57,070 bases of DNA from a virus, in the IMG/VR virus record IMGVR_UViG_3300042453_002843, positions 1-57,070 of that record. The stretch is one strand, 5' to 3'. This document shows, piece by piece, positions 2,795 to 53,825 of this stretch; within the stretch, counting starts at the first letter, position 1, and every line of letters starts with the position of its first letter. The position numbers were made by a program, and so were the translations under genes. The notes beneath the pieces are model-generated. The model saw only the letters and a list, made by a program, of their open reading frames with translations. It was not told the DNA's origin and searched no databases.

Positions 2795-3574
2795 ATGAAA
2801 ATCGCACTCGCATCCGATGTACATCTGGAATTCGGCACCATTGTATTGGACAATACTGAGAACGCGGAAGTTCTGATTCTGTCTGGTGATATTTGTGTCG
2901 CTAACGGATTCCATCCTACAGACAAAGAATTTTTCCGTACTTGCTCAGAAAAGTTTCCAAATGTAATCTATATCATGGGAAACCATGAACATTACAATGG
3001 TGACTACACATTGACCGAAAATCTTCTTCGTGATGAGCTAGAAGAATTTAAAAATATTCATCTTCTAGAAAAACAATCGGTTGAGATCAATGGCTACACT
3101 TTTATTGGTGCTACTCTTTGGACCGATATGAACAAAAACGATCCAAATACATTGTGGCATGTTAGTCGTGTAATGAATGATTTTCGTATTATTCGTAATA
3201 GTGGTGCGATTGAAGATCGAGAAAAACTTACTTCAATGTTTGTGTATAATGAGCACGTGAATACAATGCACTATATCAAAAGTGTCATTGATTCTAAACC
3301 TGAAGGTAAGTTCGTAGTTGTTGGTCATCATGCGCCATCAAAGCAGTCGGTGAAACCTCGTTATGAAAGAGATGTTCTTACTAACGGTGCGTATTCTTCA
3401 GACTTGTCGGAGTTTATTCTTGACCATCCACAAATCAAATTGTGGACTCATGGGCACACTCATGATGTTTTTGATTATATGATTGGTGAAACTCGCATTT
3501 TATGTAATCCTCGTGGCTATATTTTGTATGAAGACCGCGCTGATGAATTCGAATTACTATTTACTGATATTTAA
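2795..3574 (+). CDS. Calcineurin-like metallophosphoesterase
   Basis: This 259-residue protein carries the metallophosphoesterase metal-ligand motifs in order: ASDVH (residues 6-10), LSGDI near 36, GNHE near 64, VVGHH near 180 and HGHTH near 218. These are the D-x-H, GD, GNHE, H and GHTH elements of a two-metal phosphoesterase. The substrate is unknown. Family members cleave nucleic acids, cyclic nucleotides or phosphoproteins. The ATG at 2795 is preferred over an upstream in-frame ATG at 2762 because the ribosome-binding site AAAGGAG at 2778-2784 serves 2795. It is the first gene of the segment under the 2743 promoter. Confidence 0.9.
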   Translation: MKIALASDVHLEFGTIVLDNTENAEVLILSGDICVANGFHPTDKEFFRTCSEKFPNVIYIMGNHEHYNGDYTLTENLLRDELEEFKNIHLLEKQSVEINGYTFIGATLWTDMNKNDPNTLWHVSRVMNDFRIIRNSGAIEDREKLTSMFVYNEHVNTMHYIKSVIDSKPEGKFVVVGHHAPSKQSVKPRYERDVLTNGAYSSDLSEFILDHPQIKLWTHGHTHDVFDYMIGETRILCNPRGYILYEDRADEFELLFTDI

Positions 3575-3583
3575 AGGAAAATA

Positions 3584-4030
3584 ATGTCAACCCTAAGAAA
3601 CCTAGAAAAAGCACTTGCTGGTGAATCTATGGCACATATCAAGTACCGATATTTTGCTAAGATCGCCCGTGAGGAAGGATATGAAGATGTCGCAAGACAC
3701 TTCGAAGAAACAGCCAATCAAGAAATCAAACATGCATGGGGACACCTAGAACTTTTGATTGGTCGACCTAACACCAAACAGTGTTTGCAAAAAGCAATCG
3801 ATGGTGAAACGTATGAGTATACAGAGATGTATCCTCAAATGGAAGAAGAAGCTGAACGCGAAGGTAACGAACAAGCTATGCTTGAAGCAAGACAACAAGC
3901 GAACGAATCTCGTGAACATGCTGAACACTTCAAAATAATCCTAGAAAAAGCAGAAAAACGCTTTGCTGCTCTGAAAAAAGTTGAAGAACGCCATGCAAAT
4001 GCATACAAAAAAGTATTGGAGGCTCTATGA
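3584..4030 (+). CDS. Rubrerythrin (ferritin-like diiron protein)
   Basis: This 148-residue protein is a four-helix diiron rubrerythrin. Iron ligands are visible in [35 protein letters not shown] and ESREHAEHF, the four helical ligand segments. Rubrerythrins reduce hydrogen peroxide with electrons from rubredoxin. Most carry a C-terminal rubredoxin domain. Here that domain is absent, but a separate rubredoxin gene begins at 4027, overlapping this stop codon. Rubrerythrin is unusual in a phage and suggests protection against oxidative stress or supply of reducing steps during infection (inference). Confidence 0.93.
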
Positions 4031-9881: not shown

Positions 9882-10179
9882 TGAAGACTTTCAGTTTCAC
9901 GATTTTCCCGATACTGATTTAACTGGCATAAGGATTCTTAAAGGTCCTTATGCTGGTGTTTTATATTATTATACGAATGCTGCTGTAGAAGAGCAAGGTT
10001 ACCTAGCTACACTTCGATTTGGATATATGGTCGTTGACTCTGGTAATCTTAACAAAATGGACTTGGAAAAAGACGAAAATTTTGTTACAATGCTTGGTGA
10101 CATTCTCTCTGAAATTATTTTAATGGAAGGTAATTTTGAATCGCCTCGAACATTCTATTCTGAAAAATCTGATCTATAA
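9811..10179 (+). CDS. Hypothetical protein between uvsX and the helicase
   Basis: The frame gives 122 residues from the ATG at 9811, overlapping the end of uvsX by 71 bp. An ATG at 9841 would shorten the overlap. The conserved-looking part begins after residue 24 (DFQFHDFPDTD, then GPYAGVLYYY and TLRFGYMVVDSG), so the true start may be the later one. It resembles a small alpha/beta protein found at this place in T4-like aquatic phages, as far as I recall. The function is unknown. The downstream helicase overlaps its 3' end. Confidence 0.7.
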   Translation: MKSLTETLWEMLQFWKKPKKLKLDEDFQFHDFPDTDLTGIRILKGPYAGVLYYYTNAAVEEQGYLATLRFGYMVVDSGNLNKMDLEKDENFVTMLGDILSEIILMEGNFESPRTFYSEKSDL

Positions 10180-11536
10180 TGAAGAATACACTCGAAAGGT
10201 CATGCCTTTCATCAATCAAGAATATTTTTCCGACTCTACAGAAAAATATATTTTCAAAGAAGTAAAAGACTTCATTGAGAAATACAAAACGATGCCAACG
10301 AAAGAAGCGTTGGTAATTAATTTTGTAGAATCTAAAAGTCTAACTGAAGAGCAGGTGAGGAGTTGTGTTGAACTTGTAAATGAGATTCACAAGCACAAAG
10401 ATGAACCTACAGAAACTCAGTGGCTAACTGAACAGACTGAAAAGTTTTGTCAAGATCGAGCATTGTATAATGCAATCATGGAATCAGTTAGCATCCTCGA
10501 TGATAAAAAGACAAATAAATCTAAAGGTGAAATACCCAAGATTCTTTCTGATGCACTGGGTGTTTCTTTCGATAACAATGTTGGGCATGACTATATTAAC
10601 GACTATGAAAGACGTTTTGAATTCTACCATCAAAAAGAAGAACGAATTCCGTTCGACTTGGATTACTTTAACAAGATTACAAAAGGTGGGCTACCTAACA
10701 AAACACTCAATATTGCTCTTGCTGGGACTGGTGTTGGTAAGTCTCTTTTCATGTGCCATGTTGCTGCATCGTGTATTTCTCAGGGTTATGATGTTTTGTA
10801 TATCACAATGGAGATGGCTGAAGAAAAAATTGCAGAAAGAATCGATGCAAACCTATTGAACATCAGCATTAACGATTTGCATGTAATTCCTAAAGAAGAT
10901 TACACCAGAAGATTTTCTGCACTTCAGAGTAAAACCCATGGCAAACTTATCATCAAAGAGTATCCGACTGCTTCAGCTAGTGCATTGCATTTCCGATCAT
11001 TGCTGAATGAACTTCAGTTGAAGAAGAATTTTAGGCCAAAGATTATCTTTATTGATTATTTGAACATCTGTTGTTCCAGTCGACTGAAGATGGGAAGCAG
11101 CGTCAATTCTTATACCTATATCAAATCAATTGCTGAAGAACTTCGTGGTCTTGCTGTAGAGTTTGGTGTTCCAATCGTTTCAGCTACACAAACAACTCGA
11201 TCTGGCTTCAGTAACTCTGACGTTGGGCTAGAAGATACCAGTGAATCATTTGGTCTTCCAGCGACGGCTGACTTCATGTTTGCACTTATCAGCACAGAGG
11301 AATTGCAACAACTTGGGCAGATGATGGTCAAACAGTTGAAAAATCGATACAATGACCCTGGTGTCAATAAGAAATTTGTCATTGGAGTTGACAGGGCTAA
11401 AATGAGACTGTATGATGTAGAATCTAATGCACAAGACTTGATTGACTCTGGAATGGATGATGATAAGCCCATCAATACATTTGGAAATAGAGATAGAAAA
11501 GACTTTGGATCTAAATTTGGAGGAGTAAAAGTATAA
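10136..11536 (+). CDS. 41: Replicative DNA helicase (gp41-like, DnaB family)
   Basis: This 466-residue helicase has an N-terminal helical DnaB-like domain (residues 1-120) and a RecA-like C-terminal motor. Walker A GTGVGKS lies at 197-203 and Walker B KIIFIDYLN near 305. VSATQTTRSG is the H3-type motif and DRAKMR lies near the C-terminus. It forms a hexamer that unwinds DNA on the lagging strand with gp61 primase (encoded at 34081). It starts at TTG 10136, with the ribosome-binding site GGAAGG a few bases upstream. T4 gp41 is 475 residues. Confidence 0.96.
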   Translation: MNRLEHSILKNLIYNEEYTRKVMPFINQEYFSDSTEKYIFKEVKDFIEKYKTMPTKEALVINFVESKSLTEEQVRSCVELVNEIHKHKDEPTETQWLTEQTEKFCQDRALYNAIMESVSILDDKKTNKSKGEIPKILSDALGVSFDNNVGHDYINDYERRFEFYHQKEERIPFDLDYFNKITKGGLPNKTLNIALAGTGVGKSLFMCHVAASCISQGYDVLYITMEMAEEKIAERIDANLLNISINDLHVIPKEDYTRRFSALQSKTHGKLIIKEYPTASASALHFRSLLNELQLKKNFRPKIIFIDYLNICCSSRLKMGSSVNSYTYIKSIAEELRGLAVEFGVPIVSATQTTRSGFSNSDVGLEDTSESFGLPATADFMFALISTEELQQLGQMMVKQLKNRYNDPGVNKKFVIGVDRAKMRLYDVESNAQDLIDSGMDDDKPINTFGNRDRKDFGSKFGGVKV

Positions 11537-11539
11537 ATA
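11532..11539 (+). promoter_or_regulatory. T4-type late promoter TATAAATA
   Basis: The octamer TATAAATA is the exact T4 late promoter box. It overlaps the helicase stop codon and lies 24 bp before the ATG at 11563. T4-type late promoters have only this -10 element, read by polymerase carrying gp55 and the clamp. Confidence 0.8.
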
Positions 11540-11562
11540 CCCAATAAACTATTGGAGTCTTT

Positions 11563-12345
11563 ATGCCCGGATCGTTAAAAGTTCACGGACTGTTATTTAA
11601 ACATAGTACACTAGATAAATCTTATGTTTTAAATTCTCCTTCTCCTACAGAAAGAGGTGAACTAGCAGTTTTAGAACAAATTAATGGGTATATTATGAAA
11701 ATAGGATCTCCAATTACTGTGAAAGCTGGGCGACATACATTTAAAAATATTTACGGTGCAAATAAAGTAGAAGGCACTCCTAAGGCTGATATTGCTCTAG
11801 TTACATTTAATGCTAAGACCAAGAAGTTCGAAGATGTATGTTTCATATCTCATAAAATGGGATCCGATGCTGGAGGCTTTCAACAATATAGCGGTATTAC
11901 TCCGAAAGCTGACGGCCAAAAGACAGGTTCTATCTCAAAAGACAAGAATGTGGTTGATTTTTTGAGAAAATTGAGTGGCTATCACAATACTATTGTCGGA
12001 GCTAAAAAAAGATTCTATGCAGTAGTTAAGGATAGAAAATTAATAGGTAAGTCTATATACGGTCCTCAGTTCGGTGAAACTAGATTTGGAATAGATAACA
12101 TTCATCTAATAGGTCAAGGTGATGTTAGAATGTCTGTTGTTGGAAATGCACACAAATTAGATTTTACCGCACACGCAAGCTACAACCCAGATGTTTCAGA
12201 ATTCATGAAGAACGGATACACAACTATTATAGGTGCTCGTTATTCTTCAGGAAGAAATTATGAAGTAGATGGAGTAACCTATAAAAGTGTTAGGGTTTTA
12301 ATTATGCCGAAAAAATTAATTGGTTCTAAGGCTGAAGAAATATGA
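11563..12345 (+). CDS. Late protein with PD-(D/E)XK nuclease-like signature
   Basis: The 260-residue product has GTPKADIALVTF (about residues 67-78) followed, after a turn, by CFISHKMG. This layout, an Asp in one strand and a strand ending in x-x-K, fits a divergent PD-(D/E)XK nuclease core in which the acidic residue of the second motif is replaced. The following QYSG and the C-terminal YKSVRVLIMPKKL give no further clue. A consensus late promoter directly upstream implies expression with virion genes. It overlaps the next gene (ATGA). The nuclease reading is inference and a structural role is equally possible. Confidence 0.7.
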   Translation: MPGSLKVHGLLFKHSTLDKSYVLNSPSPTERGELAVLEQINGYIMKIGSPITVKAGRHTFKNIYGANKVEGTPKADIALVTFNAKTKKFEDVCFISHKMGSDAGGFQQYSGITPKADGQKTGSISKDKNVVDFLRKLSGYHNTIVGAKKRFYAVVKDRKLIGKSIYGPQFGETRFGIDNIHLIGQGDVRMSVVGNAHKLDFTAHASYNPDVSEFMKNGYTTIIGARYSSGRNYEVDGVTYKSVRVLIMPKKLIGSKAEEI

Positions 12346-13921: not shown

Positions 13922-14758
13922 ATGAAAGATTTGATTATAGGATGTGCGAATAATTACACATGGGAAACCCTAAAGTATTGGGTTAACTCTATCAATAAAT
14001 GCGGTTTTGAAGGTGAGAAAGTTCTCATTCTAATGAACTGCGATAACGAATCCGCAAGAAAAGTAATTGAAGCGGGATTTAAAGTCATTGGATTCGGTCA
14101 AGACGAACAAGGAAATCTTAAATATGAGCCTGGAAGAATTCCTGTTCATGTAGAAAGATTTATTCACATTTACGATCATCTCTGTAGGAACGATTATCGT
14201 TATGTTATTACAACCGATGTCAAAGATGTTGTATTCCAACAAAATCCCATCGATTGGCTAGAAAACAATTTAGGTGATAAAGGTTTAGTCTTTGCTTCTG
14301 AAAGCATGAAGTATAAAGACGAGCCTTGGGGCAATCAGAATCTTTTAGAGACTTATGGTCCCTACATTCATGAAAAATATAAAAACAACACTATCTACAA
14401 CGTCGGCGTTCTAGCTGGTCGTGCCACACAAATGCGCGATTTGATTATCAATATCTTTACCGCAGCAATCAATCGCCCAATTCCTATTTGCGACCAATCT
14501 ACATTTAATTTTATGATTTCTATGACACCATATACGCACACTTGCAAATATATGAATTCTGAAGATGGTTGGGCAGCACAATTAGGTACAACAGCAGACC
14601 CATCTAAAATAGAACAGTTTAGACCTTTTCTTTTAGAAGCAGAACCTAAGATGGTCGAAGGTAAAGTTACTACTTCGACTGGAAAAGAGTTTACAATCGT
14701 TCATCAGTATGATAGAGTACCAGAATGGCGAAAAGTTATTGAGGCGAAATATGGTTGA
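13922..14758 (+). CDS. Glycosyltransferase-like protein (GT-A type)
   Basis: The 278-residue protein has an N-terminal beta-alpha pattern (KVLILMNCDN) and a D-x-x-D variant, YVITTDVKDVVFQ, near residues 98-110, where GT-A enzymes bind the metal-sugar-nucleotide. NVGVLAGRA and CDQSTFNF resemble the acceptor-side motifs of family 8-like transferases. It is the first gene of the sugar cassette, behind AAGGAG. A TATATAAA sequence lies just upstream but without a clear -35. Donor and acceptor are unknown. Confidence 0.75.
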   Translation: MKDLIIGCANNYTWETLKYWVNSINKCGFEGEKVLILMNCDNESARKVIEAGFKVIGFGQDEQGNLKYEPGRIPVHVERFIHIYDHLCRNDYRYVITTDVKDVVFQQNPIDWLENNLGDKGLVFASESMKYKDEPWGNQNLLETYGPYIHEKYKNNTIYNVGVLAGRATQMRDLIINIFTAAINRPIPICDQSTFNFMISMTPYTHTCKYMNSEDGWAAQLGTTADPSKIEQFRPFLLEAEPKMVEGKVTTSTGKEFTIVHQYDRVPEWRKVIEAKYG

Positions 14759-15437
14759 TGGTGTGTTTTTTGTTAGTTCTGCTTTAAATGTTAAGCAGTT
14801 ATCTGTTTTTAATAATCATCAAAGATTTGAACAGACGGTAGAAACCGTAAAATCAATACAAAAGTATTGCCCAAACAACAAGATTATTATGTTCGATGCT
14901 TCTTATGATATGCCTTTATCAGAATATGTTGGACAACTAGGTCTTATGGGTGTACATTTTTTGTATGTGGGATCAAATCCTCAAATCAAACACTTTTCGA
15001 GTGTTGGTTTGAGGAGTCTCGCTGAAACATTGAGTTTTATCATTGCACTCGATTGGTATTCAAAAAATAAAATTGAAACTAAACGATACTATAAGATGTC
15101 TGGAAGATACAAGTTAAATGATAATTTTGTATTAAATCAAGATGATTTTAAAGACTCATTTGTGTTTCTTCCCACGGTAAATTCTTGGATGACAAAAGAC
15201 AAACAAGAGAGAGCGGGTGTCGATACAATTTTCGAATTGAGACTTTGGCACATGGATGCTTCTTTGTTTGATACATTTCAATCTAAGCTGCCTATTATTT
15301 TTAATGATTGTTTGGAATATGATATTGATGTTGAGCATTCTTATTACAAACATTTAAATAAATTTAAATGGGTACAAATTCAACCTATTGGATTAGAAGG
15401 TGTTATAGCACCTACAGGAGCAATTATTAATGAGTAA
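14751..15437 (+). CDS. Putative glycosyltransferase or sugar-cassette protein
   Basis: The 228-residue product starts at ATG 14751, overlapping the previous stop by eight bases, with GAGG upstream. NNKIIMFDAS and RYYKMSGRYKLND recall small bacterial glycan-locus transferases, but no DxD is clear. RLWHMDASLFD and YDIDVEHSYYKHL complete the domain. The role is inferred mostly from position between a GT-A-like protein and a sugar dehydratase. Confidence 0.65.
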   Translation: MVDGVFFVSSALNVKQLSVFNNHQRFEQTVETVKSIQKYCPNNKIIMFDASYDMPLSEYVGQLGLMGVHFLYVGSNPQIKHFSSVGLRSLAETLSFIIALDWYSKNKIETKRYYKMSGRYKLNDNFVLNQDDFKDSFVFLPTVNSWMTKDKQERAGVDTIFELRLWHMDASLFDTFQSKLPIIFNDCLEYDIDVEHSYYKHLNKFKWVQIQPIGLEGVIAPTGAIINE

Positions 15438-16464
15438 ACATGTTTTGATTACTGGTGGTGCAGGCTTCATTGCACACCATGTTATTGATCTTTTGATTCG
15501 AGTCACAGATTGGAAAATTACAACGATTGACCGGCTAGATTATTCTGGCAATTTAAATCGTCTACATGAAGTTTTGGAGAGTTATGATAGAGAAGTTCAG
15601 AAGAGAGTTAATGTAGTCTTTCATGATTTGAAAGCAGAGATTAATCCTATCACGCAAAACTTTCTCCATAAACACGGAAATATTGATGTGATTCTTCATT
15701 TGGCTGCATCTTCGCATGTAGATAGGTCGATCACTCATCCGATGGAATTTATTTTCGATAACACTATCGGTACTGCTCATCTTCTTGAGTTTGCAAGAAA
15801 ACTTCCATATCAGTTAGAAACTTTCCTGTATTTCAGTACCGACGAAATCTTTGGTGTTGCACCTCCTGGTGTTGCATACAAAGAGCGTGATAGGTATAAT
15901 TCTACGAATCCATACTCTGCATCAAAAGCTGCTGCTGAAGAATTGTGTGTTGCATATGAAAACACATATAAACTTCCAATGATGATTACACATACAATGA
16001 ATGTATTTGGTGAGAGACAAACACCAGAGAAATTTATTCCTTTGTGTATTGATCGGGTGCGTAAAGGTGAAAAAATCTTTATTCATTCAGATCATACTAA
16101 AACTCAAGCAGGAAGTCGATTCTATATCCATGCCGCAGATGTTGCAGATGCACTTTTATTCTTGGTCAAAAACAAGCCAGTTCCACAAATGGATTATGGT
16201 AATGCAAGATGCCCTAAGTTTAATATTGTTGGTAAAGAAGAAGTTGATAATCTAACACTCGCTAAACTTGTTGCTCAAGCACAAGGGAAAGATTTGATTT
16301 ATGAAATGGTAGATTTTCATTCGAGTAGACCGGGGCACGATTTGCGTTATGCACTTGATGGTGGGTTGATGAGAAGTCTCGGATGGGAACCTAAAGTTGC
16401 CTTCTCTCAAAGAATTAAACAGGTGAGTGATTGGTATTTGGAGAATGACAGATGGTTAATGTAG
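15430..16464 (+). CDS. NAD-dependent nucleotide-sugar 4,6-dehydratase (RmlB-like)
   Basis: This is a 344-residue short-chain dehydrogenase of the extended type. The NAD-binding motif GGAGFIA is at residues 9-15, the catalytic STDEIFG near 137 has the Asp-Glu pair typical of 4,6-dehydratases, and the catalytic YSASK is near 160. Length and motif set match dTDP-glucose 4,6-dehydratase (RmlB). It would produce a 4-keto-6-deoxy nucleotide sugar, which suits the C-methyltransferase encoded next. The nucleotide specificity cannot be read from sequence. Start and stop overlap both neighbours. Confidence 0.92.
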   Translation: MSKHVLITGGAGFIAHHVIDLLIRVTDWKITTIDRLDYSGNLNRLHEVLESYDREVQKRVNVVFHDLKAEINPITQNFLHKHGNIDVILHLAASSHVDRSITHPMEFIFDNTIGTAHLLEFARKLPYQLETFLYFSTDEIFGVAPPGVAYKERDRYNSTNPYSASKAAAEELCVAYENTYKLPMMITHTMNVFGERQTPEKFIPLCIDRVRKGEKIFIHSDHTKTQAGSRFYIHAADVADALLFLVKNKPVPQMDYGNARCPKFNIVGKEEVDNLTLAKLVAQAQGKDLIYEMVDFHSSRPGHDLRYALDGGLMRSLGWEPKVAFSQRIKQVSDWYLENDRWLM

Positions 16465-17657
16465 AAGCAATTAATAATTGTATTGCATGTGGGCACGACA
16501 CTTTAATTCCTGTTTTGGATTTAAAAGAACAGCCTCTTGCAAACTCTTATAAGAAAAGTCGAGATGAAGTTCAGGAAACTTATCCTCTAGCAATTGTTCG
16601 GTGTGATAATTGTTACCATGTTCAATTGACGCATCGAGTTAATCCTGATTTGATGTTTAAGGATTATTTGTATGTTTCCGGTACAGCCAAATCTCAATTG
16701 GAATATTTTGATTGGTTTTCACAATTCGCTTCTGAAAAATTTGGAACCAAACCTCGCACAGTTTTAGATATTGGTTGTAATGATGGAAGTCAGTTAAACT
16801 ATTTTCAGGATCAGGGAGCACAAACTTATGGTGTGGATCCTGCTGAAAATCTTTATGCAACATCTTCTCAGAGGCATGAGGTTGTTTGTGGTTACTTCAC
16901 GGGTAAAGAGTTTAGCCAAAGTTTTGATGTGATTGTTTGTCAAAATGCATTCGCACATAATTATGATCAATTAGAGTTGTTGCAAAATATTCGTAACGTA
17001 ATGCATAAAGATAGTTTACTTTTTGCAACCACATCTCAATCTGATATGATTTTAAATGGTGAGTTCGATACGATTTACCATGAGCATTTGTCTTTCTATA
17101 ATATTAAATCTATTGATGCTCTTTGTAAACGTGCAGATTTACATTTAGTTGATGTTGTAAAATCTCCTGTGCATGGAACAAGTTACATTTTCATCATCTC
17201 TAAGTTTTCAAAAGCACCAAAAACTATCGAGAATCTAATTGCATTGGAAACTAAATCTGGTCTTTATTTTCCAGAAACATATGTTCAATATTATGAACGA
17301 TGTAACGATATATTGAAGAAATTTAAGAATATTGTTCAGGAAATGAAAGAACAAGGAATTACTACTGTTGGCTTAGGTGCTCCAGCAAAAGGAAACACTC
17401 TACTAAATGCAGCAGAAACTTCTCTGGACTTTATCATCGATGAAAATCCTTTGAAACAAGGATTGTTTACACCCGGAAGTTCTGTGCCCATCTATGGTAT
17501 GAATCATCTTGACAATTTCAAATATTTTGATACAATATGCTTTATTCCTCTTGCATGGAACTTTTATGGTGAAATGAAAAGAAAAGTTCAAACATATAGA
17601 GTTGGAAAGAAAGACGTTTTTGTTAAATATTTTCCTAAATTTAGTATTGAAAAATGA
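16452..17657 (+). CDS. Sugar C-methyltransferase (zinc-binding, SAM-dependent)
   Basis: This 401-residue protein has the domain order of deoxysugar C-methyltransferases. An N-terminal zinc knuckle (CIACG and CDNC) is followed by a class I SAM domain with LDIGCNDGS near residue 104. The catalytic-loop signature YHEHLSFYN comes next, and a C-terminal domain contains GLGAPAKGNTLLNA. Characterised relatives methylate C3 of 4-keto-6-deoxy sugars. With the RmlB-like dehydratase directly upstream, a branched deoxysugar is a sensible product (inference). Confidence 0.88.
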   Translation: MVNVEAINNCIACGHDTLIPVLDLKEQPLANSYKKSRDEVQETYPLAIVRCDNCYHVQLTHRVNPDLMFKDYLYVSGTAKSQLEYFDWFSQFASEKFGTKPRTVLDIGCNDGSQLNYFQDQGAQTYGVDPAENLYATSSQRHEVVCGYFTGKEFSQSFDVIVCQNAFAHNYDQLELLQNIRNVMHKDSLLFATTSQSDMILNGEFDTIYHEHLSFYNIKSIDALCKRADLHLVDVVKSPVHGTSYIFIISKFSKAPKTIENLIALETKSGLYFPETYVQYYERCNDILKKFKNIVQEMKEQGITTVGLGAPAKGNTLLNAAETSLDFIIDENPLKQGLFTPGSSVPIYGMNHLDNFKYFDTICFIPLAWNFYGEMKRKVQTYRVGKKDVFVKYFPKFSIEK

Positions 17658-18346
17658 GAATAGGTTTTGGTTTTTATGGAATCTCCCATGGTCTAGACAA
17701 AAAAACTGGCTACTACAGAGACTTTCGTGATTGTTGGGAAAACATAAAAGAAAATGTGATTCAACCTTTCGTTGATTTGAAAAACGAAGCTGTGATTTAT
17801 GCCTCCACCTATAGGATGGAAGATAAAAAGGCCGAAGAAGACTTTTGGTCTTATGTAAATCCTAGAAAAGTTATTTTTAGCCAACTTGAAGGTTCGGATG
17901 CATTTACTGCTAAATCTGCTCTGCATAATGCTTTTGATGGAGAGGATTTAGACTTGGTGGTTTTCACCAGGTTTGATATTCTCTTTCATCAAAAGATTAC
18001 TACTTTTCCAATTGATTTCACCAAAGTTAATATATTTTTTCCGGAAGACCCGATGTGGTGGCAATCGCATAGATTTGTTTGTGATTGTTTCTATATTTGG
18101 AATCATGAATTTAGTGATCAAGTTAAATGGGCTATGAGAGAAACATATGGATGGCCTAGAGGCACAATGTATCCGGATACACACGGTATATTAAATTTTT
18201 TAGTTCCAAGAATCGGTCCAGAAAATATTAGTTTCATGAGTAATCAAAATCATATTAGTAATGTGAATGATTTTTATACTTTATGTAGACCTAATGTTCC
18301 AGAACACCCAAAGAAACACCCTTTCGTGAAGGCAAAATATGGCTAA
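17654..18346 (+). CDS. Glycosyltransferase-like hypothetical protein
   Basis: This 230-residue protein contains DLVVFTRFDILF near residues 98-109, a hydrophobic strand ending in an acidic pair as at the metal site of GT-A folds. MWWQSHRFVCDCFYIWN follows, a pattern seen in surface-polysaccharide transferases. It overlaps the methyltransferase stop (ATGA) and the next gene. No definite family assignment is possible. Confidence 0.65.
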   Translation: MRIGFGFYGISHGLDKKTGYYRDFRDCWENIKENVIQPFVDLKNEAVIYASTYRMEDKKAEEDFWSYVNPRKVIFSQLEGSDAFTAKSALHNAFDGEDLDLVVFTRFDILFHQKITTFPIDFTKVNIFFPEDPMWWQSHRFVCDCFYIWNHEFSDQVKWAMRETYGWPRGTMYPDTHGILNFLVPRIGPENISFMSNQNHISNVNDFYTLCRPNVPEHPKKHPFVKAKYG

Positions 18347-19085
18347 TAATTTGATAGTGTGCCCCGCTGGAATGTACATTCCAAAAGATTCAAGATGGAA
18401 ACATGAAGATCACTGGCGTTGGGTACACAATGAAAGAGACTATGAAACTCTCGTTATTGTTTATAACGATTTTGAACCTGAGCCAGGATCATATGATCAT
18501 ATTGTTCGCATTAAAGGGCATAAGTGGCAGTTGATGCAGAAGGTCAAAGATATTATTGATATTGAACGTTTTCGTTATATTGGTTGTGTCGATGATGATT
18601 TGATTACTGGATATCAAGACTTCAATACCGGATTAAAATATGCACAAGCATACAACTTCGGATATTGGCAACTATCGATGCCTCACGATTCTAGTTTAAT
18701 TTATGAGCCTCTATTCAATGACCCAGCGTGTGATTTTTCTGAGACAAATTTTATTGAGATGGGATCGTGCTTCTTTAGATTAGATTTGTTCAAGTTTTTG
18801 ATGGAGTTTATTGGTCATTGGAATCTAGAAATAGCATGGGGTATCGATAAGACATTTTATGATTTGTTTCAACAGCCCGCATATGTCATTCACTCTGCAA
18901 TGATTCATCAACCATTTAGAGACAGTTATTATGATAAGACTGCTGCAATGAATGAAATGAACGATTATTTGTTTAGAAGATATCCAGAAATTCTCGACAA
19001 ACATTATGGCAGAAAATCTAATTTTGTCGATAGACAAGTGACTTTTAGAAAGTTTAAATTAAATGATAAAGCTGATAATTCTTGA
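18339..19085 (+). CDS. Glycosyltransferase-like protein with VDDD motif
   Basis: This 248-residue protein has YIGCVDDDLITG near residue 90, a strong D-x-D-type metal and nucleotide-sugar binding motif. EMGSCFFRLDLFKF and AYVIHSAMIHQ follow in the order seen in a family of uncharacterised eukaryotic and bacterial transferases. It is likely a GT-A glycosyltransferase. It overlaps the neighbouring genes on both sides, including 23 bp with the HAD phosphatase. Confidence 0.72.
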   Translation: MANNLIVCPAGMYIPKDSRWKHEDHWRWVHNERDYETLVIVYNDFEPEPGSYDHIVRIKGHKWQLMQKVKDIIDIERFRYIGCVDDDLITGYQDFNTGLKYAQAYNFGYWQLSMPHDSSLIYEPLFNDPACDFSETNFIEMGSCFFRLDLFKFLMEFIGHWNLEIAWGIDKTFYDLFQQPAYVIHSAMIHQPFRDSYYDKTAAMNEMNDYLFRRYPEILDKHYGRKSNFVDRQVTFRKFKLNDKADNS

Positions 19086-19599
19086 TGTTGATGGCGTCTT
19101 AACTGACGGAAGAAAATATTATGATCGAGATGGTACTGTCAGATTAAAGACTTTTTGTGACAAAGATTGGACAGCAATTAAAAGATTTAGGGCATTGGGA
19201 ATCAATGTTATTTTTCTAACAGGTGATCCGTTTAATGTTTCAATTGCAGAAAACAGAAAGATCGATGTAATTGTCAATCGACAAAACGGAACTCATACAG
19301 ATAAATCAGATTATCTGGAAGAAATATGTCGAGATTACAATGTGAGCCCTGAAGAAATTGTTTTTGTGGGTGATGATATTTTCGATTACAAACTTATGAC
19401 GATGATCGGATATAAGTTCTGCCCTTCCGATGCAGTTTTTGAATTGAAAACTATTTGTATTATTTTAGATATCTGTGGAGGTAACAATGTAGTTTCTGAA
19501 CTGTATAATCATCTCTTTCATAAAAATTTATTACCAAAACACAATTTGGAAGATCATCTGAATAAAGTTTATGACCTGGACAAAAAAGAGAAATTCTGA
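19063..19599 (+). CDS. HAD phosphatase (KdsC-like)
   Basis: This 178-residue protein carries all HAD motifs without a cap domain: LDVDGVLTDG (nucleophile Asp at residue 8), FLTGD, a lysine after the second motif, and FVGDDIFD. That set, especially DVDGVLTDG, is typical of KdsC, which dephosphorylates KDO-8-phosphate, and of related phosphatases in sialic-acid and heptose pathways. In this cassette it probably removes phosphate from a sugar-phosphate intermediate. The C-terminal 40 residues extend beyond the usual domain. Confidence 0.85.
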   Translation: MIKLIILDVDGVLTDGRKYYDRDGTVRLKTFCDKDWTAIKRFRALGINVIFLTGDPFNVSIAENRKIDVIVNRQNGTHTDKSDYLEEICRDYNVSPEEIVFVGDDIFDYKLMTMIGYKFCPSDAVFELKTICIILDICGGNNVVSELYNHLFHKNLLPKHNLEDHLNKVYDLDKKEKF

Positions 19600-20279
19600 T
19601 GTTTGATTTTGCAATCTATGGGCATCTCGTGATTGATAATATTCATGATGGTGACTTTAACACAATGAATTTTGGTGGTATTTACAATACATTTAAAGCG
19701 TTTAAAGAAATAGATAATAGTCTTCAGATAGGAATTTCTCCATTAAGCATAGGATATGCTGACATCTTTATTGATAGAAAAACTAGTTCTCGAAGTTCAG
19801 TTGCAAATCTAAATGAAAAACAGATAACACCAAAAATACTAGATTCTAAAGTTCATCATCTAATGTACATAAATGAACTTTATAATTTATCGGTACTGCC
19901 TTCTTTTTCTGGAATTCTAACTGCTGATGTATGTAAAGGTTTTCAAATAAAGAATCCGATTCTAATTAATTTTTTAGATTATATTTTTGTTTCTGATGAA
20001 GATGAACAAGATATCGATTTTCTAATTGATAATGTTAAAAAAGGTGTTTTTCTTCATTCAAAAAATGGATGTGAATATTTGAGTAAAGATTGTAAACATA
20101 CATATGAAATACCAAAACATTTAATGGTGAAAAATGCAAATGTGTTGGGTGCAGGAGATATTTTTGCTGCGAGTACCCTCTATTCACTTTTCTATATAAA
20201 TTTGACAGAAGAGGATGCAATTCAAAATGCCTGCATTTTAACTTCGAATATGATTAGGAAATATAATGAAAAAGTATAA
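19599..20279 (+). CDS. PfkB-type sugar kinase, shortened
   Basis: The 226-residue product ends with NVLGAGDIFAASTLYS, the PfkB anion-hole and catalytic-Asp signature (GAGD). The N-terminal NFGGIYNTFKAF resembles the substrate-binding G-G of ribokinases. At 226 residues it lacks 70-90 residues compared with ribokinase or the HldE kinase domain, so the lid region may be reduced. Function as an active sugar kinase is plausible but not certain. It sits between a phosphatase and a nucleotidyltransferase, a pathway context like that of ADP/GDP-heptose synthesis. Confidence 0.75.
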   Translation: MFDFAIYGHLVIDNIHDGDFNTMNFGGIYNTFKAFKEIDNSLQIGISPLSIGYADIFIDRKTSSRSSVANLNEKQITPKILDSKVHHLMYINELYNLSVLPSFSGILTADVCKGFQIKNPILINFLDYIFVSDEDEQDIDFLIDNVKKGVFLHSKNGCEYLSKDCKHTYEIPKHLMVKNANVLGAGDIFAASTLYSLFYINLTEEDAIQNACILTSNMIRKYNEKV

Positions 20280-21423
20280 TTTGTTACTGCCTATTGCTGG
20301 TAAAGCACAGAGATTTTTGGATGCAGGCTATACCATGCCCAAGCCTCTGATTTTAGCAAAACACAAACACGTTATTGATTGGTCATTATCATCGATCAAT
20401 ACTAGAGAATGCAATCTAATTTTTATTGTTAGATTGGATCATATCTACAATTTCAGTATTGATAGAATTTTAAAAAAGAAATTCGGATCCGACATTCAAA
20501 TCTTTGTGGTCGACAAAGTAACTAGAGGAGCACTTGAAACCTGTGTTCTTGCTGAAAACTATATTGATAACGATTTACCTCTCTTCATTTATACACCAGA
20601 TGTTTATTTTGAACCTGTGTTTGATCCTGCAACCATCGATGAAAAGTCTGATGGTTTTCTCTTAACATTCTTGGCTAATAGCCCAGATCATAGTTATACA
20701 GAAAAAGATGAATTTGGAAAAGTGACCAGGGTTGTCGAAAAAGAAGTCATATCACAAGAAGCTAATGTGGGTCTCTACTACTTTAAAAGCGGTAAAATGT
20801 TTTTGAAGTATGGGCGAGAAGTCATCGAAAAGAATATGTTGGTCAAAAATGAATTCTATATTGCACCAATGTACAATTTAATGATTCGTGATAATCTACA
20901 TGTTACTGCTGAAAATACAGAGAAAATGCATATTCTTGGGACACCAGAAACATTTGAGTTTTTCTGTAAAAGAGTTATCTCTAGATTTGGAGAAAAACCT
21001 ATTGCATTAGCTTGCGATCATTCTGGATATGAAATGAAAGAGATTGCTAAAAAGCTTCTGATAAATAGAAATTTACCAGTTATTGATGTTGGAACATATG
21101 TAAATAAGCCATGTGATTATTTTGATTATGTAAGTCAATCAGCTAGATTAATCAATAATAATGATTGTGATTATGGTATTTCTTTTTGTAGGTCTGGGCA
21201 GGGTGTTAATATCGCAGCAAATCACTGTGAAGGATTAATCTCCGCTTTGACTTTTGATGAGTTTACTGCTGAATATGCAATAAAACACAATTGTGCCAAT
21301 CACTTCGCAATTCCATCAAAATATGTTGATGAAAATATGTTTACTAAGATGATTGATATTTGGTTGAATACTACTTTTGATGGAGGTAGACATTTCACTA
21401 GACTGAATAAGGTACTAAAATGA
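20266..21423 (+). CDS. Sugar nucleotidyltransferase fused to RpiB-like isomerase
   Basis: The 385-residue protein has two domains. Residues 1-240 form a sugar-1-phosphate nucleotidyltransferase with PIAGKAQRF and MPKPLI at the nucleotide site and YTPDVYF near the catalytic metal. Residues 245-385 form a RpiB/LacAB isomerase: ALACDHSGYEMK, VIDVGTY, the catalytic Cys in GISFCRSGQGVNIAAN, and GGRHFTRL. RpiB normally interconverts ribose- and ribulose-5-phosphate or related sugars. The fusion is unusual and suggests isomerisation and nucleotidyl activation of one sugar in a single polypeptide. No frameshift is seen at the junction. Confidence 0.88.
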   Translation: MKKYNLLLPIAGKAQRFLDAGYTMPKPLILAKHKHVIDWSLSSINTRECNLIFIVRLDHIYNFSIDRILKKKFGSDIQIFVVDKVTRGALETCVLAENYIDNDLPLFIYTPDVYFEPVFDPATIDEKSDGFLLTFLANSPDHSYTEKDEFGKVTRVVEKEVISQEANVGLYYFKSGKMFLKYGREVIEKNMLVKNEFYIAPMYNLMIRDNLHVTAENTEKMHILGTPETFEFFCKRVISRFGEKPIALACDHSGYEMKEIAKKLLINRNLPVIDVGTYVNKPCDYFDYVSQSARLINNNDCDYGISFCRSGQGVNIAANHCEGLISALTFDEFTAEYAIKHNCANHFAIPSKYVDENMFTKMIDIWLNTTFDGGRHFTRLNKVLK

Positions 21424-38831: not shown

Positions 38832-38849
38832 TTTTTGAAAGGAAAAAAA

Positions 38850-39854
38850 ATGAAGAAACTATTATTTTTATTGATTGCTACTTTTTCGATGTCGGTGAAT
38901 GCACAAATCATTACTGGTGCCGGTGCAACATTTCCATATCCGATTTATGCGAAGTGGGCTGAAGCATATAAGAAGGAAACAGGAATTGGTTTGAATTATC
39001 AAAGTATCGGTAGTTCAGGTGGCATTCGTCAAATTAACTCTGGTACAGTTACATTTGGTGCATCTGATGCACCTGTGAAAGGTGATGAACTGGAGAAAAG
39101 AGGGCAGGTACAATTTCCCGCAATCATTGGTGGTACAGTACCAATCATTAATCTGGATAATTTTAGTCCAGGTGAATTGAAGATTAATGGTGTGGTTCTC
39201 GCACGAATTTTTATGGGTACCATTACTCGATGGAACGATCCTCAACTTAGAGAACTGAATCCAGGAAAGAATCTTCCCAGTAGTGCAATTACCGTTGTTC
39301 ATCGAGCAGATGGATCAGGCACCACATTTAACTTCACCGACTACTTGACTGTTGTAAGTAAAGAATGGGAAGAGAAAGTTGGGCGTGGTGCTGCTGTAAA
39401 ATGGCCAGCGGCAAGCTCAGTCGGTGGTAAAGGTAATGAAGGTGTTGCAGCAAATGTTGATAGAATTAAAGGTTCGATTGGTTATGTTGAATATGCATAT
39501 GTTAAGAAAAACAACATGACATATATGAAATTGCAAAACAAAGATGGTGTTTTTGTAGATCCTGATGATACAGCATTTGCTGCGGCTGCTGCTGGTGCAG
39601 ATTGGTTTAGTGTTCCAGGCATGGGTCTAAGTATTGTTGAACAACCAGGAAAAAATACTTGGCCAATTAGTACAGCAAGTTTTATTATCATGTACAAAGA
39701 ACCCAAAGACAAGAAGGCCAGCGATGATGTACTAAAATTCTTCGATTGGGCATTTAAGAATGGATCGAAAATGAGCGAAGAATTGGACTATGTTCACCTA
39801 CCAGAGTCTCTGCAAAACGAAATTCGCAAACGTGTATGGTCGCAAATTAAATAG
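38850..39854 (+). CDS. pstS: Phosphate ABC transporter substrate-binding protein PstS
   Basis: This 334-residue protein has a Sec signal peptide ending near VNAQ at residue 18 and the full PstS set of phosphate-binding segments: GAGATFPYP, SIGSSGGIRQI, ASDAPVKG and RADGSGTTFNF. The ATG at 38850 follows AAAGGAAAA. The host would secrete it to the periplasm to raise phosphate uptake. PstS is a well-known auxiliary metabolic gene of marine cyanophages. It sits last in the nucleotide-metabolism segment. Confidence 0.95.
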   Translation: MKKLLFLLIATFSMSVNAQIITGAGATFPYPIYAKWAEAYKKETGIGLNYQSIGSSGGIRQINSGTVTFGASDAPVKGDELEKRGQVQFPAIIGGTVPIINLDNFSPGELKINGVVLARIFMGTITRWNDPQLRELNPGKNLPSSAITVVHRADGSGTTFNFTDYLTVVSKEWEEKVGRGAAVKWPAASSVGGKGNEGVAANVDRIKGSIGYVEYAYVKKNNMTYMKLQNKDGVFVDPDDTAFAAAAAGADWFSVPGMGLSIVEQPGKNTWPISTASFIIMYKEPKDKKASDDVLKFFDWAFKNGSKMSEELDYVHLPESLQNEIRKRVWSQIK

Positions 39855-52020: not shown

Positions 52021-52419
52021 ATGATGCCTCCTGGAACTTACTATGTTGGTGATCTCTGCTATGTCATGCATAATGAATGGGACGAATTCTGTGACTTGAC
52101 TACTGAAGGAATGCGTTGTCTGGAAGGTGAATTTCAACTAGCAGATGGGCGTCGATTTGCTACTTTCAGTACCGCATACGGTGATGGCGAATACTACGAC
52201 CAATACGGAAATGCATATCCTGTCGATGCTGGTTTGATTGGCTGTATTCGTGTGGAAGACTTGACTGAAGAAATTCGATTTGGAACTGGTAAAGTCTTTC
52301 GATTCGATACTGACTTTGAAGTCTACTCTCGGAACGGTGTAATTACTATCGGAAGTGTGGTTATTGATACGGCTGAAGAGTTTGAGGAAGAGTATGAGGA
52401 AGAATATGATGAGGAATAA
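52021..52419 (+). CDS. Early conserved protein of the GxYYVGD type
   Basis: The 132-residue product begins PPGTYYVGDLCYVMHNEWDEFCDL and includes RFATFSTAYGDGEYYDQYG and VDAGLIGCIRVEDL. That arrangement occurs in small proteins of many phages and bacteria of unknown role, to my knowledge. The C-terminus is extremely acidic (EEFEEEYEEEYDEE). The start of the restriction-endonuclease-like gene lies 14 bp inside its 3' end. Confidence 0.72.
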   Translation: MMPPGTYYVGDLCYVMHNEWDEFCDLTTEGMRCLEGEFQLADGRRFATFSTAYGDGEYYDQYGNAYPVDAGLIGCIRVEDLTEEIRFGTGKVFRFDTDFEVYSRNGVITIGSVVIDTAEEFEEEYEEEYDEE

Positions 52420-52969
52420 TCGAGATTCGGTTATTGCCTCTCTTAAAAAATTTGAATGGAATGAAATTATATCTAAAATCAATCGTCTTGATGATTTAAA
52501 TGATCGTCAATGGAGATTTGCTAAAGGGCTGGTTGTTGAATTAATAGTTGAAAAACATAGTGGTTCAGATGGATTGAAATATGTGGGTGAAGTTCATAAA
52601 GATTATGATTGGCCCAAATATGATATTTCTGTCGAATTAAAGAGTATGACATCCAGTACCATGTATGGTAAAAAAGGTAACCTACATAAATCTTATAACA
52701 TTAAATTTAATAATAGTAATGGCACAAACAAAAAAATTAAACTAGACTTTTCCGAAGTGGCTGATATACTATTAGTAGTGAAAAATGACGGAGCCTTTGT
52801 TGTCGATAAACAAACCGTAATTGACAGAGGCGTGAGCACTGGTGATGGATTTGATGTTAAATTAAAAAGAACAGATATAATTGAAATTTCAGGTAAAATT
52901 GAAGTTTCCAAACAAAAATCTTTAAATATTAAAAGTAGACTACTAAATGCAATCAAACAAGTTATTTAA
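52406..52969 (+). CDS. Putative type II restriction endonuclease (PD-ELK)
   Basis: The 187-residue protein has a PD-(D/E)XK-type site: WPKYDISVELKSMTSS around residues 70-85, with an Asp in KYD and ELK as the acidic-x-lysine element. N-terminal helices (FAKGLVVELIVEKHSG) precede it, as in compact type II enzymes. It overlaps a DNA methyltransferase gene by 23 bp on the same strand, the classic restriction-modification arrangement. This stretch is much more AT-rich than the genes before it, suggesting recent acquisition. No recognition sequence can be inferred, and a solitary nuclease of another type remains possible. Confidence 0.65.
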   Translation: MMRNNRDSVIASLKKFEWNEIISKINRLDDLNDRQWRFAKGLVVELIVEKHSGSDGLKYVGEVHKDYDWPKYDISVELKSMTSSTMYGKKGNLHKSYNIKFNNSNGTNKKIKLDFSEVADILLVVKNDGAFVVDKQTVIDRGVSTGDGFDVKLKRTDIIEISGKIEVSKQKSLNIKSRLLNAIKQVI

Positions 52970-53825
52970 AGTATTCAATCAATCTTGCATCGAAGGTATG
53001 CAAGAACATGTACCAGATAACAGTGTGGATCTAATTTTTACTGATCCTCCTTATGGAATCGATGGCGATGGGCTGGATGTTCATTACCATCGAGATGAGT
53101 CTAATGTTGTTCCAGGTTATATCGATATTCCTTTAACAGAATATGCACAGTTTAGTTCATCATGGATTCGTGAGTGCTCTAGAGTGCTTAGACCTGGTGG
53201 CAGTATCTACATTGTCAGTGGATATACAAATCTACACCATGTTCTAAATGCTCTACATCAAACTGAATTGAAAGAAATTAATCATATCATTGCGAAATAT
53301 AGTTTTGGTGTTAGCACTAAAAATAAATTTGTCAGTAGCCACTATCATGTATTGTTTTGGCAAAAGCCTGATAAAGGTCGCCAGAAGCGTACATTTAATT
53401 CAAATTGGAAATATACGGATCAAAAAGATAGTTACCATGATAGGCTGACAGTACAGGATATGCCTCGCGACTATAAACCTGGGCAAATTAAAAATAAAAA
53501 TCAATTGAGCGAAGATTTCATTGCTAAGTTCATTCTGTATAGCAGTAATCGAGGAGATACTGTATTAGATTGTTTCGGAGGTGGATTTACCACTGGTCGA
53601 ACTGCACTACGATGGGGTCGAAAGTTTATTGGATTCGAACTGAATAAACATGCATATGATGCATTTGCTCCTACTCTAGAAAATGTTAAAGAATTACCCG
53701 ATCCTGTACCCATTAGCCCTGATCCCATTGAATTGGCTAAACGTGAAAAAATGAGGGCTGGCTGGGCTAAAAATCGATCCGAACGTAAACAAAAAAATTC
53801 CTCTGCGATAAATGTCGTTTTTTAG
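52947..53825 (+). CDS. DNA adenine/cytosine-N4 methyltransferase (beta class)
   Basis: The 292-residue protein has FTDPPYGID near residue 31 (motif IV, DPPY) and the SAM motif I as VLDCFGGGFTTGRTALRWGRKFIGFELN near 205. Motif IV comes first, so it is a beta-class amino-methyltransferase. RVLRPGGSIYIVSGY is motif V/VI-like. DPPY predicts N6-adenine or N4-cytosine methylation. It is translationally coupled to the nuclease gene upstream and would protect phage DNA. The C-terminus is basic (KREKMRAGWAKNRSERKQ). Confidence 0.9.
   Translation: MQSNKLFKVFNQSCIEGMQEHVPDNSVDLIFTDPPYGIDGDGLDVHYHRDESNVVPGYIDIPLTEYAQFSSSWIRECSRVLRPGGSIYIVSGYTNLHHVLNALHQTELKEINHIIAKYSFGVSTKNKFVSSHYHVLFWQKPDKGRQKRTFNSNWKYTDQKDSYHDRLTVQDMPRDYKPGQIKNKNQLSEDFIAKFILYSSNRGDTVLDCFGGGFTTGRTALRWGRKFIGFELNKHAYDAFAPTLENVKELPDPVPISPDPIELAKREKMRAGWAKNRSERKQKNSSAINVVF

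Follow-up and report, generated by a model that had tools for sequence, protein, structure and literature searches.

The nuclease gene R and the methyltransferase gene M that lie side by side in the window (the whole stretch of 57,070 nucleotides of viral DNA analysed here) very probably form a phage-borne type II restriction-modification (R-M) system, in which, judging from genome statistics, R most likely cuts unmodified AGCT and M shields the phage genome. What is more, we consider it likely that many T4-type phages carry the solitary enzyme with no methyltransferase, being immune since selection has purged AGCT from their genomes of 100-180 kb, and that M lets such sites persist or return. 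Conserved synteny, an intact PD-(D/E)XK site in a confident structural model and the AGCT specificity predicted for both proteins support the original prediction of an R-M pair in a T4-type phage.

The gene pair and its proteins

R and M are separate, linked genes, as is typical of type II systems, and the same order is found in many IMG/VR loci. The features of the locus, all on the + strand, are:

52021..52419, +, preceding gene, phrog_20074, function unknown; overlaps R by 14 bp, outside the R-M pair
52406..52969, +, R, nuclease gene; ORF of 187 aa from an in-frame ATG at 52406; predicted cutter of unmodified AGCT
52538..52540, +, E45 codon; conserved helix acid of the R active site
52601..52603, +, D66 codon; catalytic acid of the PD-(D/E)XK motif in R
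52634..52642, +, E77-L78-K79 codons; ExK part of the R motif, E and K invariant
52947..52969, +, 23 bp shared by the 3' end of R and the 5' end of M; like the overlaps in L016 and L041
52947..53825, +, M, beta-class DNA amino methyltransferase, 292 aa; predicted AGCT protector
53040..53057, +, TDPPYG, catalytic motif IV of M (residues 32-37)

The overlap of 23 bp had been claimed at the outset and is indeed there, both ORFs being present at 52406-52969 and 52947-53825 (the mechanical ORF of R begins further 5', at GTG 52355); to judge from the gene layout, R and M are likely to be translationally coupled through it. Since the preceding gene overlaps R as well, all three genes are probably carried on one transcript. 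The window belongs to a T4-type phage by its gp43/gp44/UvsX/gp41-type replication genes, its PHROG matches including clamp loader gp44, DNA polymerase, UvsX, a DnaB-type helicase and primase, together with ribonucleotide reductase, ThyX and dCMP deaminase of nucleotide metabolism. A search with 25 kb of the window brought up no close relative among GenBank phages. Elsewhere in the window, as read from sequence only, genes of sugar-nucleotide, glycosyltransferase-like and SAM-methyltransferase-like type are lined up one after another (13922-21423), and a gene for a 339-aa PstS-like phosphate-binding protein follows nrdB (38835-39854).

M is immediately preceded by an R homologue in L013, L016-L018, L019-L021, L024-L026, L029 and L041, as well as in a later set (L375-L380, L434-L451); the order R-then-M, already remarked upon originally, is kept wherever the two genes were seen side by side, and they often overlap. 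Across the phages with both genes, M is conserved at 73-84% identity and R at identities down to 20-50%. R occurs with no M in L001-L011 and several larger contigs of the first set and in about fifty further loci found later, M occurs with no R in L012, L022 and L023, and R is missing from most close relatives. The large solo-R contigs examined (G055-G057, G063-G067) contain T4-type genes, and in one group of T4-type phages R adjoins uvsX/uvsY. Two loci have other neighbours: in L001 an HNH endonuclease gene (PF01844; 1170-1616) follows R in place of M, and in L014, from a 167-kb phage with 63 AGCT against 402 expected, an unrelated 208-aa protein (HIEQKSG; 3369-3995) replaces R upstream of M. 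The latter protein could not be assigned to a family, no further homologue of it turned up, and the model built from its sequence alone reaches a pLDDT of only 34.

Searches with R in Pfam, NCBIfam, PHROGs, PADLOC, PDB sequences, GenBank phages and plasmids returned nothing meaningful, and no relatives emerged when 84,980 cellular species were scanned with a profile pattern. The AlphaFold2 model of R, built from an alignment of 20 sequences (mean pLDDT 93.8, pTM 0.89), has the PD-(D/E)XK fold, in which D66 lies on one strand (65-69) and E77-K79 on the adjacent one (74-81), and its best structural match is ThaI (3ndh; Z 9.8, 163 of 187 residues, 3.5 Å), a PD-(D/E)XK type II enzyme (PMC4666351). 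NaeI (Z 9.5), DpnI (8.8), Eco15I and NhoI (about 8) come next, PvuII is matched too, and the eight top structural rows are all restriction enzymes; by sequence, neither a single R sequence nor the profile gave a meaningful PDB hit that would place R in the ThaI family. The 'PD-ELK' motif of the original prediction corresponds to D66...E77-L78-K79, to which E45 has to be added. Namely, E45, D66, E77-x-K79, N103 and G106 are invariant across 49 R clusters (90% identity), so that the motif is not a chance one, and the catalytic acids, whose loss from a structural model would have spoken against a nuclease, are present. In addition, solo R is under purifying selection, with dN/dS of 0.04-0.08 where synonymous changes are unsaturated. 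Although DpnI is among the fold matches, the stable pairing of R with M and the loss of AGCT from the M-less solo-R phages argue against a methyl-dependent (type IIM/IV, DpnI-like) enzyme. A distant relative with the same catalytic residues is SSM1_072 (L280:43522-44034), a 'hypothetical protein' of cyanophage S-SM1.

M matches PF01555 at 6.4e-32 (111.7 bits against a curated cut-off of 26.7) and is a beta-class amino methyltransferase, with DPPY preceding the SAM-binding motif; the 'DPPY' noted originally is part of TDPPYG, which is invariant in ten M homologues. M also matches the PADLOC type II methyltransferase model PDLC03296 (7.6e-82) and the CcrM structure 6pbd (1.8e-22), and CcrM itself (NF050803) was rejected as an assignment, the score of 95.6 bits being far under the cut-off of 830. 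The first IMG/VR scan yielded M homologues at 18 loci, with the 73-84% identity given above, many of them adjoining R. The closest cellular homologues (47-54% identity, mostly archaeal) have no R beside them and consequently are of no help in fixing the specificity; beside two of them lies an unrelated gene that belongs to no named family. In two archaeal MAGs (L294:2907-3590 and L296:2904-3611), close M homologues have similar, divergently transcribed neighbours of 227-235 aa, which carry WDIKAHS or WDIKVHS and may be another restriction enzyme.

AGCT content of phages with and without the methyltransferase

Taking as our premise that an active R with no M requires its sites to be absent or otherwise protected, we compared tetramer counts with their expectation from trimers. 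In the first solo-R contigs, AGCT was found at 0/143, 0/85, 1/94, 0/43 and 1/47 (observed/expected). Pooled, this set gives 2/438 versus 2882/3971 in 159 control loci picked by core genes (UvsX, helicase), a log2 difference of -7.0 as compared to -0.29 for the next most depleted tetramer, with the proviso that R phages differ from the controls in GATC content and the control set is thus imperfectly matched. When 21 R lineages are taken together, both those with M and those lacking it, the sole strongly depleted palindrome is AGCT, with a median ratio of 0.12 versus 0.77 in the controls (Mann-Whitney p 1e-10); a ratio of 0.02 or below is seen in 4 of 143 controls.

Since this first set had formed the hypothesis, a new scan was run with a divergent R profile and the new contigs were scored afterwards. 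In this independent second set, the solo-R loci had zero AGCT with one exception, and all R+M loci had sites, with ratios up to 0.96. In the merged clusters (90% R identity), AGCT is zero in 28 of 33 with solo R versus 1 of 16 with M (Fisher 1.4e-7), where the 28 are not independent events, many solo-R clusters being related phages. The large solo-R contigs illustrate the scale, with AGCT at 0/422 in 181,867 bp, 0/288 in 117,515 bp and 0/255 in 113,406 bp; among R+M phages, G071 keeps 255/320 in 80 kb and L376 keeps 26/27. In other words, genome statistics point to AGCT for both proteins: as the tetramer is absent with solo R and kept with M, R most likely cuts AGCT, and as the phages with M tolerate it, M presumably shields it. 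That said, AGCT remains scarce in most R+M phages (ratios mostly 0.02-0.22), a scarcity that complete shielding by M would not call for and that may be due to incomplete protection, a solo-R past, or other pressures. GANTC, considered as a site from the resemblance of M to CcrM, was discarded, as it is nowhere strongly depleted in solo-R contigs.

The searched solo-R contigs contain no PF01555 gene and no cytosine-5 methyltransferase that could act as protector, and the three largest no PF02086 gene, where it should be noted that most contigs are partial, so that an M elsewhere in the genome can be missed. In a UvsX tree, the solo-R phages are placed among R-free relatives. In particular, AGCT is zero in the L009 group and stands at 42/46 and 26/39 in its relatives L105 and L104, whose contigs span the R locus and have no R there; it is zero in the L003/L004/L006 group and stands at 33/60 and 20/35 in the relatives L113 and L174. 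The closest controls, L100 and L101, retain AGCT, and their contigs stop short of the R locus. There are exceptions. The 212-kb G001 (L060-L070) has an intact R (L039:3989-4540), AGCT at 139/538 and no methyltransferase of three families over the cut-off; in its relative L041, M sits between R and the next gene. The short solo-R contigs L043 and L044 retain some AGCT. In L429, an apparent solo-R exception, R (9980-10576) overlaps a D12-class methyltransferase gene (10563-11609), an arrangement that we read as an R-M pair with a swapped methyltransferase and perhaps another specificity. The 20 kb of L429 have AGCT at 24/67 and GGCC at 2/62.

Other tetramers are also missing in places. Among solo-R contigs these are GTAC (0/87 in G003), GCGC (0/85 in G057) and CATG (0/35 in L427, 0/39 in L448), and L452 has GATC at 0/41, GGCC at 0/17 and CGCG at 0/17. 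The T4-like cyanophage S-SM1 (NC_015282; L280-L283) has GTAC at 0/491 and CCGG at 0/140, and 25-kb samples of further cyanophages (L284-L291) have CTAG at 0/45 (S-SM2), TTAA at 0/87 (S-ShM2) and GTAC at 0/85 (Syn1), CCGG being zero in most T4-like cyanophages sampled. Such gaps could be the traces of additional solo restriction enzymes, or of enzymes of the hosts. We do not attribute the GTAC loss in S-SM1 to SSM1_072, since Syn1 also lacks GTAC in the stretch sampled yet has no such gene.

The low G+C of the segment had been read as a sign of import. The hand counts behind this reading are exact (11 of 60 at 52681-52740 and 25 of 60 at 52081-52140), and R is indeed low in G+C, with 29.8% as compared to 37.3% in the window and 45.5% in the 2.9 kb upstream. 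However, M at 37.1% is not AT-rich, and R is more AT-rich than its surroundings in 12 of 12 loci measured, so that low G+C, largely a trait of the R family, is a weak sign of import. Recent arrival is better suggested by the AGCT content of the window, which is ordinary (121/189, a ratio of 0.64, near the level of the R-free controls), whereas in the majority of R+M relatives AGCT is reduced several-fold to tenfold. Within the R-M cassette, 0 AGCT stand against 2.9 expected, alone a weak number; both counts are compatible with a cassette acquired from a source poor in AGCT and now shielded by M.

Alternative readings and the proposed mechanism

Could AGCT avoidance be driven by the host instead? 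In this case, hosts would have an AGCT restriction system, M would be an anti-restriction gene and R an unrelated, co-occurring nuclease. AGCT is indeed scarce in two T4-type contigs with neither R nor M, G024 (133 kb, 20/314) and G026 (93 kb, 11/265; L260-L271 for the two), which means that other forces can deplete it, and profile searches of the AGCT-poor, R-free contigs found no isoschizomer or distant R. It is likewise scarce where M occurs with no R-family member (G013 63/402, G018 14/105), and cyanophages lack other tetramers yet lack this R family. However, the R-free, M-free relatives retain AGCT as a group and also in the nearest loci where the R position is covered, zero AGCT tracks solo R through several R subfamilies and did so again in the independent set, and R directly adjoins M in many lineages, all of which makes avoidance imposed by hosts improbable. 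We consider it very unlikely that R is a structure-specific or repair nuclease of the Holliday-junction resolvase type, lodged in a replication/recombination module next to an orphan M. The position beside uvsX/uvsY in one T4-type group would suit such a role, as would the presence of Hjc and RecU among the structural matches (Z about 5-6), but restriction enzymes match R far better and over more residues, a resolvase would not explain why one exact palindrome is lost, and R, unlike a core repair gene, is absent in most close relatives. Finally, the ordinary AGCT content of the window and the several phages that keep M with no R would agree with an R that is inactive or dispensable in the window, M being kept only against a host AGCT enzyme. 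Against this, the R of the window is full length, has every invariant residue and stands in a conserved gene order, and we think such a loss of function unlikely.

We therefore retain a working R-M system as the preferred reading, and what it does is a separate question. In the mechanism we propose, R and M would be translated from one transcript, probably with R first; M would modify AGCT on phage DNA (m6A or m4C), and R would cut unmodified AGCT in double-stranded DNA, a site expected about every 256 bp in random sequence. R would fragment the host chromosome, stopping host functions and feeding the nucleotide-metabolism genes of the phage, and/or would destroy the DNA of competing elements. 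In solo-R phages, the same weapon would come with no methyl shield, self-protection consisting in the lack of AGCT anywhere in the genome. It is quite possible that the system is real and serves mainly to exclude superinfecting phages or plasmids, or as an addiction module, rather than to destroy the host chromosome. Namely, the R-M system of marseilleviruses leaves host DNA undegraded, has been linked to coinfection and is proposed to exclude rivals (PMC7253447), and exclusion of other viruses is also proposed for the archaeal virus enzyme HHPV4I (PMC10101028). On the other side, degradation of host DNA is ascribed to chlorovirus enzymes (PMC7019647), and the phage studied here encodes ribonucleotide reductase, ThyX and dCMP deaminase, which serve nucleotide supply.

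Known systems and significance

Type II R-M pairs carried by phages are a known kind of system. ThaI, the best fold match of R, is likewise a small enzyme and its target, CGCG, is a 4-bp palindrome; it shares 10% sequence identity with R, which differs in its predicted target, in being phage-borne and in having many relatives with no methyltransferase. The target of the solitary endonuclease PacI of Pseudomonas alcaligenes, a cellular enzyme, is an 8-bp, AT-only sequence and rare in any case, whereas in solo-R phages a 4-bp site expected hundreds of times appears to have been purged from more than 100 kb. PacI is tolerated since the genome of its carrier has none of its sites (PMC3488263), and by analogy it is the nearest precedent that we found for the solo-R phages, on a different scale. 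Chloroviruses (CviAI, CviJI) resemble our phage as lytic viruses with adjacent R and M genes and short targets, but they infect algae and package R in the virion, and genome-wide site loss is not reported in the accessible text (PMC7019647). The Marseillevirus system is also a complete R-M system of a lytic virus, albeit a eukaryotic one, and its target is GATC (PMC7253447). CcrM and other beta-class N6-adenine methyltransferases (PF01555) share with M the motif order, DPPY and the methylase domain, the target of CcrM being GANTC and that predicted for M AGCT. Staphylococcus phage phi-42 carries a complete, BcgI-like R-M system, but is a temperate, converting (lysogenic) phage, and the architecture of its system is a different one (cited in PMC4190342). 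HHPV4I is virus-encoded as well, and is described as an m6A-dependent, SRA-domain enzyme (PMC10101028); unlike it, R coexists with its M and should therefore cut unmodified DNA.

Complete R-M pairs are uncommon in lytic phages, the R family went unrecognised by the libraries tried, and the open-licence papers searched contained no report of such phage systems. The R family thus appears to be new, as do its predicted specificity and its site-purging solo form. Here, the cut site of an uncharacterised enzyme is predicted from genome statistics alone, and self-protection by total removal of sites is a route undescribed in the phage papers found in the open-licence literature. If this is true, the fully missing tetramers of other phages would flag further unrecognised solo enzymes, and they could assign specificities to small 'hypothetical' genes of T4-type phages.
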